From IMG/VR virus record IMGVR_UViG_3300036944_000156, positions 1 through 41,411 of that record: a stretch of 41,411 bases of DNA; one strand, given 5' to 3'. Position numbers and translations under genes: made by a program. Shown here one piece after another: positions 31,256 through 36,857 of this stretch. Origin of the DNA: a virus. Under the pieces are notes generated by a model. The model worked only from the letters and a program-made list of their open reading frames with translations, searched no databases and had not been told where the DNA came from. How positions within the stretch are numbered: position 1 is the first letter of the stretch; the number at the start of each line of letters is the position of its first letter.

Positions 31256-31900
31256 TTAGTTAATAGCATTGACGAGGTCTGTCAATGCTTGTGCTCCTTG
31301 GTCTACAATTATACTATTGATGTCGCTGTTTGGTGGTAGCGACACGCGGATGGCTTGAGGAATTGCATCCTGTAATCGACGAGCTAAGTCCTGCCCTGGG
31401 TTGGAGCCGTCTTCCTTAACATCATTGTCGGTTGCGATTACAACCGTACCAATCCCATCAAAGCACCTACTAAAGTAAGGCTTCCAAGCGTTAACACCAG
31501 CAACGGCAACAGCGGGGTGTCCAGCAAGAGTCGCGCTAATCGCATCTATCTCTCCTTCAACTATGAGCACCTGGCTAACCGCGTTGAGGATTGCATCAAC
31601 GTTATATAAGTGGTGCTTCTGACCAGTTGGAATCATATACTTTGGGTCACCGCCATCGATGCGACGAAACTTAAACCCAACTACACCAGCCCCTGTTATA
31701 TAGGGGATGGATAGGTGATGCTTAAGTCTGTCTTCGTGACCAGGTGCAACCTCGGCTACATATCCTAGTAAAAATTTTTCAGCACCATCAAGGATGCCTC
31801 GGGTCGCTAGATATTCTTCTGCTGGTGAGCCAGCAAGGGATGCATGGTATTGATGTGCTGCTTTAGTCCAGAGTTCTATTAGCTTTGGGTTGGTTCTCAT
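31256..31900 (-). CDS. DNA primase, RNA polymerase/TOPRIM part (214 aa)
   Basis: Residues 60-100 ('HHLSIPYITGAGVVGFKFRR' then 'IDGGDPKYMIP') match the N-subdomain of the DnaG catalytic core. Residues 108-165 are the TOPRIM fold with E115 in VLIVEGEIDA and D158/D160 in IATDND. The zinc-binding domain that DnaG normally carries at its N-terminus is instead encoded by a separate gene (32636-32968), two genes upstream. This part is coupled to the small gene before it by ATGA. Confidence 0.9.
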   Translation of the reverse strand: MRTNPKLIELWTKAAHQYHASLAGSPAEEYLATRGILDGAEKFLLGYVAEVAPGHEDRLKHHLSIPYITGAGVVGFKFRRIDGGDPKYMIPTGQKHHLYNVDAILNAVSQVLIVEGEIDAISATLAGHPAVAVAGVNAWKPYFSRCFDGIGTVVIATDNDVKEDGSNPGQDLARRLQDAIPQAIRVSLPPNSDINSIIVDQGAQALTDLVNAIN

Positions 31901-32115
31901 TGTAACTCCTTTTCAATAGCCTGAATAGTAGGACAGGGATAGTATTCAAACCCTTGACCGCACTCCGAACACCTTAAGTCTGACCCATCTATGTCGTTTG
32001 AATTGTCATATGGCTTATGCAATTCCACTACTGCACGAATTGCAGATGTGTATTCGTCATAGGGATTGCCTTCTATTGCATAATCAATTTTTGCCAGCAA
32101 TTCATCGTGTGTCAT
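31897..32115 (-). CDS. Small protein with zinc-site cysteines (72 aa)
   Basis: 'MTHDELLAKIDYAIEGNP' is helical, followed by 'LRCSECGQGFEYYPCPTIQA' with three cysteines and a CxxC pair. ATGA overlaps on both sides link it to the HslV-like gene and the primase. I recognise no family. Its constant company with primase parts suggests a replication accessory. Confidence 0.6.
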   Translation of the reverse strand: MTHDELLAKIDYAIEGNPYDEYTSAIRAVVELHKPYDNSNDIDGSDLRCSECGQGFEYYPCPTIQAIEKELQ

Positions 32116-32639
32116 AGCCTCTTCTGTTTCCTCATAATGAATGGAGGTGCAGTATACACGTCATTCTTTGCAGCGATAGTCAAAGCTTCTTTCCACCCAG
32201 CACCTTGGGCTAAAGCTCCGAGTGCAAATGACGAGCCAGAACCTACGCCGTACAAACCGTCATCACGTAGGTAGATAGAATAGGAATCATCTATCTCGTA
32301 GATGGTTCCATGTATGGCAACGATCAGTTGAAAGCCACTGTCGCTTGAGTCTTTGTCTGGCTGATAGCCAGACTCTTTAATACATTCACGTAAGCTTGGA
32401 GCTACAATAGTAATCATCCATGTGTATAAGTTCTTACCAACAGGTGCAACAGGTGGACGCCATACATGTTGGATGATGTCACATGGTTGCACGTCACCAG
32501 CACCAGCGATGAGCCACTGCCCACGCTTGGTTATCTTGGTGATGGTTGGATGTGAGTACGGACGTGAGTCCGCTGTCGTTCGTGAGTCAGCTGCTATGAA
32601 GCAGTGATCATCTTTTTGTACCGCAATAATAGTTGTCAT
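32112..32639 (-). CDS. HslV/proteasome-like Ntn-hydrolase (175 aa)
   Basis: The start at ATG 32637-32639 gives 'MTTIIAVQKDDHCFIAADSR', so the nucleophile threonine becomes residue 1 after Met removal, as in HslV. D18 (in AADSR) and K35 (in ITKIT) sit where HslV has catalytic Asp and Lys. 'LIAGAGD', 'LYGVGSGSSFALGAL' and 'AAKNDVYTAPPF' match the HslV strands and last helix. The length is that of HslV. No HslU ATPase is encoded here. It lies between the two primase genes, with ATGA overlaps on both sides. Substrate unknown. Confidence 0.8.
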   Translation of the reverse strand: MTTIIAVQKDDHCFIAADSRTTADSRPYSHPTITKITKRGQWLIAGAGDVQPCDIIQHVWRPPVAPVGKNLYTWMITIVAPSLRECIKESGYQPDKDSSDSGFQLIVAIHGTIYEIDDSYSIYLRDDGLYGVGSGSSFALGALAQGAGWKEALTIAAKNDVYTAPPFIMRKQKRL

Positions 32640-32968
32640 CTTGCACGTAACCTTGGGGGTGTCCACCGTCCTGACGAGCGTGACTTGCCACGTCCTGACA
32701 CAGCAGAGGGGTTGGATTTTTCTTTGCCGATATTCTTTTCTGCCCATGAACGAGCCTCTGGGTATGTTAAGTTCTCACGAGCCATAACGATCTGTATTCC
32801 AGAACCGCTAGCAGCACATGCATAACATACCCAGACGCCCTTGTCTGAGTTTACCGAAGCAGACTTCTTTGAATCATCGTGTACTGGACACAGGATTGAC
32901 TTCTCACCTTGCGGTAAGTCCAATCCGTAATGATTAAATACTGCTTCAAGAAACTCAGGCTGATTCAT
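32636..32968 (-). CDS. Primase zinc-binding domain protein (110 aa)
   Basis: A CHC2-type zinc domain: C27-x2-H30 (CPVH) and C48-x2-C51 (CYAC), with 'GVWVCYACAASGSGIQIVMA' as in DnaG. The basic tail (85-110) follows. It recognises the priming site in DnaG-type primases. Here it is a separate polypeptide from the catalytic part at 31256-31900. The ATG lies three bases from the transglycosylase stop. Confidence 0.88.
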   Translation of the reverse strand: MNQPEFLEAVFNHYGLDLPQGEKSILCPVHDDSKKSASVNSDKGVWVCYACAASGSGIQIVMARENLTYPEARSWAEKNIGKEKSNPSAVSGRGKSRSSGRWTPPRLRAR

Positions 32969-32971
32969 TTG

Positions 32972-33349
32972 TTAAAACCAATTCCTTTCCTGATGGAACT
33001 TGTATGCCTCGCACCAAGATCCGTATCGATGTAGAACATATTCGTGTGCTTCCGTTGCTTGTTTGAATACTGACCAACGTGGATGTCCCCACATTAGTTG
33101 CCAAGCTCCAGTTGCTGACGAACGCTTGTTCTTCGCTTCCAATCGGTAACGAGATTCTTTGAACGCTATCTTCAGCGAGCAATCTATTTCCGACTTGTCC
33201 TTCGTCAATGTGCCTATCGCAAAACGAAGCTTCTGCCTCGGCTCCATCACTGAAACCATTTGTTCCATTGATGCAGCTGGTGCTATTGCTTCCGCTGGTG
33301 TTGCGACTATCATCATTGATGTTACTACGGTCATTACCATCAACCGCAT
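32972..33349 (-). CDS. Secreted lytic transglycosylase-like protein (125 aa)
   Basis: ATG 33347-33349 follows AGAGGT. Residues 1-21 are a signal peptide with a hydrophobic core ('MRLMVMTVVTSMMIVATPAE') and an AxA-type cleavage site near 'EA|IAP'. The mature part has the SLT pattern: catalytic E65 in 'IAFKESRY', then 'KRSSATGAWQLM' and the end 'YVLHRYGSWCEAYKFHQERN'. It would cut peptidoglycan between sugars after export. A second frame is also open over the same bases, but it shows no domain. Confidence 0.82.
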   Translation of the reverse strand: MRLMVMTVVTSMMIVATPAEAIAPAASMEQMVSVMEPRQKLRFAIGTLTKDKSEIDCSLKIAFKESRYRLEAKNKRSSATGAWQLMWGHPRWSVFKQATEAHEYVLHRYGSWCEAYKFHQERNWF

Positions 33350-33387
33350 AGTTACCTCTTTTCAGTTGGTAAGTAACTGTCACCTTC

Positions 33388-33744
33388 TTACCTATGTCCA
33401 TTGTAACCTGCCTGTTTTAGCAGATCCGCCCAAAGCCATGCGGGCATAACCGCATATGACTCTGAGACATTTGATGTGCCACGCTTCTTCATTAATACAA
33501 CCCCAGTCTCTGCATCAGCATGAGTCATTTCATCCTCAAGCTCACGCAGGTACTGTGGAATCCTAAATGATTTCTCATTCTTGCATTCTATAACTACGCC
33601 ATCTATACCGTCAATGTCTCCGACATCATCGTGTCGACCAGCACCGTATGCACGTTCGGCACACTCGAAGCCATAGCTTCGAAGCCACTTAACTACATCA
33701 CGTTCGTACTGTGAGCCCTTACGTTTAGCTGCACTGCTCATCAA
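33388..33744 (-). CDS. Holliday junction resolvase-like nuclease (118 aa)
   Basis: A PD-(D/E)XK fold with 'KRKGSQYERDVVKWLRSYGF' (E14), 'GDIDGIDGVVIECKNEKS' (D43, E53, K55). This is the arrangement of archaeal Hjc-like resolvases widely found in actinophages. It resolves branched DNA formed in replication and recombination. ATGA overlap with whiB upstream. Confidence 0.85.
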   Translation of the reverse strand: MMSSAAKRKGSQYERDVVKWLRSYGFECAERAYGAGRHDDVGDIDGIDGVVIECKNEKSFRIPQYLRELEDEMTHADAETGVVLMKKRGTSNVSESYAVMPAWLWADLLKQAGYNGHR

Positions 33745-35805: not shown

Positions 35806-36480
35806 CTACTTTCTCTCCTTTTCTTTCCCCTTGTTTGGTATTTGTAATGGGAAATCTTTGCCACCAAATGCTGGGCATTGGGCGGTGAAAGAACACATAC
35901 GACAAGAATCTCCGACAGCTGGTGGGAACCAACCGTTCATTGTCGAGTGGTTCATTGCTCCAAAAACATAATCAAAATATTCCATACTTAGTGGGGACAA
36001 GTCAAGTAACTCATCGAGTTCGCCTTTGCGTGTCATGAAGAACGCGCCCCACTTAGGTCGTATCCCATACGACCGTTCGATACCAGAAGCATAGAGTCCT
36101 GCTTGCACAGCACCGAAGGGTGTCCTAGAACCTGTCTTGTAATCAACGATAACGAGGTCTTCCCCTACCTTGTATATCGCATCAACAATCATGCGGACTG
36201 GTGTACCCCCGAAGGTTACATCAGCACTCCACTCGATTCCAGGACGCCCGTCGGGCATGGTTGCTATCTGCCAACCAGATGACTCGTACCATTTCTGGTA
36301 CGACTCGACCTGCTTGAGTCCATCGTTCTGCCAGAATGACAGATCTTCCCCGTCAGGACGTGCTGCAGTTTTGCGACCAGCTGTCTTCCACTCCGAAGAG
36401 GGAATGTTAGATCGTGATTCTACTTCTGCTACTGCGTCATTAAATACTTCTAACCATTTAGAAGTCAAATTTGTAGTCAT
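35806..36480 (-). CDS. Cas4/RecB-like nuclease, C-terminal fragment (224 aa)
   Basis: It carries the core motifs of a RecB/Cas4 nuclease: D100 in MIVDAIY (motif II), D113-Y-K115 in VIVDYKTG (motif III) and QAGLYA (126-131). At the end is C193-x2-C196-x5-C202 ('CRMCSFTAQC'), exactly the three-cysteine end of a [4Fe-4S] cluster. Motif I (GxxxHxxxE) and the first cysteine are missing here and lie in the separate gene at 36654-36857. The start is an ATG 23 bases inside the zinc-ribbon gene. Confidence 0.85.
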   Translation of the reverse strand: MTTNLTSKWLEVFNDAVAEVESRSNIPSSEWKTAGRKTAARPDGEDLSFWQNDGLKQVESYQKWYESSGWQIATMPDGRPGIEWSADVTFGGTPVRMIVDAIYKVGEDLVIVDYKTGSRTPFGAVQAGLYASGIERSYGIRPKWGAFFMTRKGELDELLDLSPLSMEYFDYVFGAMNHSTMNGWFPPAVGDSCRMCSFTAQCPAFGGKDFPLQIPNKGKEKERK

Positions 36481-36697
36481 CTGGGTCCCATTCTGGATGG
36501 TCGATTGGAGTAGGCGCTGTCATTGGTGAACCACACTGGTTACAGAATGAATCAAGGAACCACATTACCAGTTCGTAGTCAGAAAAGATAGCTCTGATTA
36601 CTTGGATGTTTGAACCGCAGTTGATGCACTCATTGCTGGGTACACCACGCTGGTCAATTCCCTGCGGTGGGGTTGGACTGTCGTCTGTAGAGCTCAT
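36458..36697 (-). CDS. Zinc-ribbon protein inserted between nuclease halves (79 aa)
   Basis: 'CINCGSNIQVIRAIF' and 'SFCNQCGSPM' supply two CxxC pairs for a zinc ribbon. The ends are acidic. It overlaps the N-terminal nuclease gene by 44 bases and the C-terminal one by 23 bases, so all three are co-translated. No ATG exists further in. It may have been inserted, or it may act with the nuclease. Confidence 0.7.
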   Translation of the reverse strand: MSSTDDSPTPPQGIDQRGVPSNECINCGSNIQVIRAIFSDYELVMWFLDSFCNQCGSPMTAPTPIDHPEWDPDDYKFDF

Positions 36698-36857
36698 GGT
36701 TTAACCACTCAATCATTGAATGTACTGCAGAACCTGCAGCGAGGTATACTGCGGGCTTCTCTGGAACCATGGCTATCTTACTCAAGTAGTATTTCTGAGG
36801 ACAGGATTGCCAAGTAGACAACTGACTGTACGATCTATGAGGAGGAAGTTCATTCAT
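36654..36857 (-). CDS. Cas4/RecB-like nuclease, N-terminal fragment (67 aa)
   Basis: 'SYSQLSTWQSCPQKYYLSKI' holds the first cluster cysteine (C19), and 'AAGSAVHSMIEWL' is motif I (H46, E50) of the RecB/Cas4 family. The stop falls just after the first helix following motif I, where one-piece relatives continue toward the core. It is the first gene of the replication operon. Confidence 0.85.
   Translation of the reverse strand: MNELPPHRSYSQLSTWQSCPQKYYLSKIAMVPEKPAVYLAAGSAVHSMIEWLNHELYRRQSNPTAGN

Follow-up and report, generated by a model that had tools for sequence, protein, structure and literature searches.

A putative two-chain Cas4/AdnA-type phage exonuclease encoded by a split gene

The split locus and its neighborhood

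The DNA analyzed here (the window) is 41,411 bases long and makes up an entire IMG/VR virus record. Three overlapping ORFs on its minus strand, each in its own frame and together occupying three frames, encode the two pieces of a Cas4/AdnA-type nuclease, which we call exoN and exoC, and a zinc-ribbon-like protein between them (Table 1). exoN and the zinc-ribbon ORF overlap by exactly 44 bases (36654-36697), and the zinc-ribbon ORF and exoC by exactly 23 bases (36458-36480). A preliminary description of this DNA had given these ORFs, motifs, and overlaps, and they were correct to the base. It had also drawn co-translation at a fixed stoichiometry from the overlaps, for which we do not consider them sufficient proof.

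Table 1. Features of the split nuclease locus and the adjacent genes in the window
Feature	Length	Position	Strand	Characteristics
exoN	67 aa	36654..36857	minus	N-terminal piece of Cas4/AdnA-type nuclease; C19, motif I GSAVHSMIE (H46, E50)
Zinc-ribbon-like ORF	79 aa	36458..36697	minus	C24-x2-C27, C52-x2-C55; separate gene between the pieces
exoC	224 aa	35806..36480	minus	Rest of the nuclease; D100, D113-Y-K115, Q126-x3-Y130, C193-x2-C196-x5-C202
Split-loop gap (from where the conserved part of exoN ends to the start of exoC)		36458..36697	minus	
Gene directly downstream of exoC, same operon	157 aa	35332..35805	minus	No Pfam/NCBIfam family
DnaB/RecA-like ATPase	277 aa	34497..35330	minus	phrog_243, E 6.6e-76; Pfam DnaB_C, AAA_25

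Both exoN (E 4.4e-7, 30.5 bits) and exoC (E 4.2e-8, 33.9 bits) matched PF12705 (PDDEXK_1) above the Pfam cut-off of 22 bits. In phrog_1870, a family of one-piece phage proteins, exoN matched positions 11-71 and exoC positions 76-298 (E 2.7e-58), and the two matches adjoin without overlapping. Since each piece passes the Pfam cut-off and the two match adjoining parts of phrog_1870, the split-gene layout is far beyond chance. The upstream extension of exoC is limited, as its frame is open for just 13 more codons in the near-identical locus L001. In alignments with one-piece relatives, motif I H46/E50 of exoN and D100, D113/K115, and Q126/Y130 of exoC are invariant, and so are C19 and C193/C196/C202. 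These results bear out two claims of the preliminary description: that the cysteines are divided 1+3, and that the active site is divided into motif I on exoN and motifs II-III on exoC. A CRISPR-associated Cas4 was rejected as the identity of the protein, because exoC (31.3 bits) and exoN (14.5 bits) scored below the cut-off of 65 bits for TIGR00372, the CRISPR-associated Cas4 equivalog; the likeness to Cas4 is one of fold and motifs.

The 157-aa gene has the place of the gene that lies between the nuclease and the DnaB-like ATPase in relatives (L241, a Herbidospora prophage, and PHL037M02), and a primase also belongs to the neighborhood. Because its neighbors are this gene, the DnaB/RecA-like ATPase, and the primase, the nuclease probably functions in end resection for replication or recombination. 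Gene order is similar in actinophages carrying one-piece enzymes, and, judged by gene content, the host may be actinobacterial. The primase is likewise present as two ORFs, a CHC2 zinc-finger piece and a TOPRIM piece (31256-31900, 32112-32747, and 32636-32968, minus strand), and between them is a proteasome/HslV-like Ntn-hydrolase ORF (Pfam Proteasome, E 1.5e-4, just under the cut-off). Two other long ORFs, at 32955-33401 and 32972-33349 on the minus strand, overlap in different frames; the latter, of 125 aa, had a weak match to transglycosylase SLT (E 0.0036, under the cut-off).

Conservation and distribution of the split

A scan of viral contigs yielded 80 loci of the window's clade, in which the three proteins were placed by tblastn. 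In 79 of the 80 contigs, exoN, the zinc-ribbon ORF, and exoC each had a frame of their own, and the 80th (L030) starts within the zinc-ribbon ORF. A motif census was made on 56 distinct sets with all three ORFs. The motif I histidine and glutamate, C19, and the three C-terminal cysteines were retained in 55 of the 56 (cut contigs aside). The exception is L005, whose otherwise near-identical locus has lost motif I through a 27-residue in-frame deletion in exoN (L005:975-1082). All three ORFs are under purifying selection: pooled pN/pS was 0.04 in the part of exoN that lies outside the overlap, 0.14 in the zinc-ribbon ORF, and 0.20 in exoC. Synonymous change in the clade is high (about 0.5-0.7 per site), and therefore the conservation does not come from recent copying. 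A sequencing error, which the preliminary description had named as a possible refutation, was rejected because of the three-frame layout and the selection on all three ORFs; no continuous frame was found anywhere in the clade.

Both CxxC motifs of the zinc-ribbon family were invariant in 24 homologues. The zinc-ribbon model has strands at residues 32-39, 42-52, and 58-60. Its Foldseek matches to Rpb9/TFIIS-type ribbons were weak (E above 1); no hit of the fold search had an E below 1, none of the VIA rows reached a Z of 2, and Pfam zinc-ribbon models scored below the cut-off on the 79-aa ORF. A homing endonuclease as the gap gene was rejected, as neither Pfam nor PHROGs nor NCBIfam matched the ORF to an endonuclease. 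Among cultured phages, neither the zinc-ribbon protein of the window nor a distant homologue used as a query had a match. In L037 and L043 the ATG of the zinc-ribbon ORF is changed to ACG, and translation may begin instead from a TTG at 'NLTIDQ'. In many of L465-L494, a zinc-ribbon homologue lies about 0.1-0.2 kb upstream of a one-piece nuclease, on the opposite strand.

The preliminary description had proposed a search of related phages for one-piece and split versions, and both forms were found. Distant relatives (about 30% identity) are broken at the same loop and have no insert, coiled-coil-like genes, or a distant zinc ribbon there. In ct2KA10 (OX376640, L082), the nuclease consists of 61-aa and 202-aa ORFs in different frames, with a 17-base overlap and nothing between them. 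Every assessable locus among 80 ct2KA10-related contigs was split. When two scans of this type were pooled, with some contigs counted twice between scans, 153 of 158 loci were split, four were without an N region, and one was one-piece. The pN/pS of the ct2 clade was 0.14 for the N piece and 0.17 for the C piece. In L457 the pieces are re-fused in frame through loss of the junction, giving a natural one-piece form within a split clade (L457:2203-2961), for which an assembly artefact is a possible alternative. In some ct2KA10-type members the gap measures about 305-323 or 955 bases and contains one or two further genes, of about 110 and 218 codons. The genes at L197:2045-3017 and L225:2682-3011 are coiled-coil-like (107-109 and 218 codons) and of no clear family, and their products had no endonuclease match in PHROGs.

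A further scan, led by the one-piece enzyme of the Herbidospora prophage (L241), gave 37 one-piece and 41 split loci. New split lineages included L498/L503 (overlapping), L499, the L509 type, L511, L525 (insert of about 190 bases between the pieces), and L501/L524 (insert of about 520 bases). In L509-type loci, the N piece stops at a TAG and the C piece begins at the next codon, a TTG, in the same frame; read-through of this TAG in L509, L512, L513, L515, and L517 would yield the full-length enzyme. TAG recoding was rejected for these phages, because all three stops end genes there and the genetic code is thus the normal one. Active-site residues and cysteines were retained in the aligned representatives of the split lineages. 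Nearly all split relatives are metagenome contigs, and the split nuclease is very common in freshwater phages.

The break was mapped on a profile of one-piece relatives with 279 positions. In all split lineages tested, the N pieces end at positions 52-58 and the C pieces start at positions 57-67, with essentially no sequence lost at the break. This stretch varies in length in one-piece proteins and lies just past the motif I helix. On a tree of the joined N and C pieces, parsimony called for five state changes (four splits plus a re-fusion, for instance), a count made unsure by the long branches; a single ancient split with later fusions was not rejected by the AU test (p 0.083).

Predicted structure and the two-chain reading

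Because the stop of L509-type loci is in frame, a natural sequence could be folded as one chain. The AlphaFold2 model was made from such a relative of the window's own pair, L517, using its natural N and C sequences with the TAG read as a residue. The model is a single domain with a pLDDT of 90.9 and a pTM of 0.87. The motif I helix spans residues 43-59 and the next helix residues 70-89. The sole internal segment with a pLDDT under 50 is residues 63-67, beside the stop at residue 69 where the protein is split. In Foldseek/VIA-align comparisons, the model matched AdnA with a Z of 16.2 over 220 residues at 3.2 A, AddB with a Z of 14.9, and Cas4 SSO0001 with a Z of 11.0 over nearly the whole length; it was also placed with ACE1, Dna2, and EXO5 (Z 16 to 8.5 across the set). 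Since the model matches AdnA, AddB, and Cas4 folds over nearly its whole length, N and C as modeled jointly make up a complete domain, of which either alone spans only a part. A single-sequence search of the PDB gave just unrelated obelins (E above 0.1); the profile search recovered AdnA and Cas4.

We therefore favor, with a probability of about 0.83, the reading that a functional Cas4/AdnA-type (PF12705) phage exonuclease is encoded as, and assembled from, two polypeptides. That the halves are separate genes jointly making one nuclease, as the preliminary description held, agrees with their being complementary parts of the same families. exoN would give the opening helices, a single cluster cysteine, and the histidine and glutamate of the catalytic motif I, and exoC would give the remaining nuclease core (motifs II and III and QxxxY) and three cysteines. 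The two chains would fold into a single domain with a composite active site, stapled together by a shared metal cluster, probably Fe-S. The enzyme would resect DNA ends in phage replication or recombination, as is thought for the one-piece actinophage enzymes. The break falls in a flexible loop of variable length that follows the motif I helix, a site where cutting would do the least harm, and the gap can lodge unrelated small genes, in the window the zinc ribbon. Since exoN has the histidine and one of the cysteines and exoC has everything else, neither chain by itself should suffice for an active enzyme that bears a cluster. Physical assembly of exoN and exoC in the cell is probable, and so are the nuclease activity and the role of the pair.

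In solved Cas4 structures, the cluster is held by one N-terminal and three C-terminal cysteines (PMC4176176; also PMC3466216), and by analogy the pair may carry a [4Fe-4S] cluster. Cysteine mutants of Cas4 Pcal_0546 and SSO1391 stay active (PMC4176176), and therefore the cluster may not be what holds exoN and exoC together. Moreover, a Zn-bound homologue exists (3L0A; PMC3466216), so the metal could be Fe-S or Zn. The ORFs are most likely translated separately, since a Shine-Dalgarno-like GGAGTGG is present at the zinc-ribbon start in many relatives and frameshifting cannot bridge the long inserts of some lineages.

Other explanations differ in what they make of the two pieces. exoC alone might be the working enzyme, with exoN doing a separate job such as regulation. 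Cas4 activity needs motifs II and III and QxxxY, whose mutations most clearly kill it (PMC4176176), and all of these sit on exoC. However, exoN retains exactly the cluster cysteine and the motif I histidine and glutamate, and it is the more conserved piece. Furthermore, the H80A mutant of SSO1391 is inactive (PMC4176176), and H80 is likely to be the motif I histidine, judged by its spacing after the N-terminal cysteine. The preliminary description had looked to relatives in which the 224-aa protein is complete by itself; among the relatives found, none had an exoC-type protein without an N piece, cut contigs aside. An exoC that works alone is thus improbable. Alternatively, programmed +1 frameshifting or read-through of a stop might join the pieces as they are translated and yield a fraction of full-length enzyme. 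The coordinates place both the zinc-ribbon ORF relative to exoN and exoC relative to the zinc-ribbon ORF at +1, the step from N to C in the ct2 type is +1 with short overlaps, and the C piece of the L509 type directly follows an in-frame TAG. Against this, two shifts would be needed in the window and the zinc ribbon would be inserted in the product, no obvious slippery site was seen on inspection by eye, and the mechanism could not work in relatives whose halves are separated by about 300, 520, and 955 bases, which makes such joining very improbable. We consider it extremely improbable that the pieces are relics of a nuclease inactivated by an insertion, the alternative raised in the preliminary description. 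A gene does sit within what relatives have as one gene, and motif I is gone from L005. This reading was nevertheless refuted, and a dead gene rejected, by pN/pS values of 0.04-0.20, which for exoN and exoC mean strong purifying selection, by the motifs kept in all the other distinct loci of the clade, and by the same split in distant lineages.

The zinc-ribbon protein could be a third subunit or an assembly factor bridging the nuclease pieces. In the window's clade it always lies between the halves and overlaps them, and it is under purifying selection. A distantly related zinc ribbon from this family occupies the gap in L500, L502, L504, L518, L501, and L524, and in L499 one lies upstream of exoN. 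However, in split nucleases of the ct2 and L509 types no gene of this kind lies between the halves or overlaps them, zinc ribbons adjoin one-piece nucleases on the opposite strand in many of L465-L494, and no fusion of the zinc ribbon to either piece was found among the loci searched. A bridging role is therefore unlikely, and the help from this protein suggested in the preliminary description was not supported. Since other split lineages lack it and it also occurs beside one-piece nucleases, the zinc ribbon is a frequent neighbor, or lodger, of the nuclease and neither the cause nor a required part of the split.

Comparison with known systems and implications

Split phage enzymes and Cas4-like phage exonucleases are already known. 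The one-piece Cas4-like exonucleases of actinophages (PF12705, phrog_1870/phrog_69), such as those of Mycobacterium phages Journey13 and Hookmount, Propionibacterium phage PHL037M02, and the Herbidospora prophage, have their motifs and 1+3 cysteines in common with exoN and exoC, as well as the block order of nuclease, small gene(s), DnaB-like ATPase, and primase. They are encoded by one gene of about 250-320 codons, whereas the window has two genes and one between them. The AdnA and AddB domains, Cas4 (SSO0001, Pcal_0546), Argonaute-associated ACE1, Dna2, and human EXO5 have the fold of the N+C model and one N-terminal and three C-terminal cluster cysteines as in exoN and exoC, and the spacing of C193/C196/C202 in exoC is that of Cys200/203/209 in Pcal_0546 (PMC4176176). 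All of these are single-chain domains, and the papers searched showed no native split of such a domain.

Split enzymes include NrdA of Aeh1 (mobE), the DNA polymerase gp43A/gp43B of Aeromonas phages, and T4 topoisomerase, of which NrdA of Aeh1 and gp43 of Aeromonas phage 25 work in two-chain form (PMC2988022). Like exoN and exoC, they have two ORFs with a gap colonized by other genes. Their gaps hold homing endonucleases or an untranslated spacer, whereas here a zinc ribbon, coiled-coil-like genes, or nothing is found; moreover, the present case is a metal-cluster nuclease whose break recurs at one site in distant lineages. No split Cas4, RecB, or exonuclease was found in the literature searched, and the words 'split' and 'truncated' are absent from a paper on Cas4 phylogenomics (PMC5704561). 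What appears to be new is a nuclease domain divided through its active site and its metal site, recurrently at one loop, for which the literature searched held no case.

It is possible, although we would put it forward only tentatively, that the split is adaptive, kept or regained in several lineages because activity becomes conditional on the assembly of two chains around a shared metal cluster. If so, an enzyme that degrades DNA ends could stay inactive until needed, and the nuclease could be tied to the iron or redox state of the cell. In many aquatic phages, automatic annotation is likely to label exoN as 'hypothetical' and exoC as a truncated exonuclease. The pair is a ready-made split nuclease for biochemistry. 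It also provides a test case for whether assembly in the Cas4/AddB/AdnA family depends on the Fe-S staple, for how phage enzymes survive the splitting of their genes, and for why distant lineages are broken at one and the same loop.
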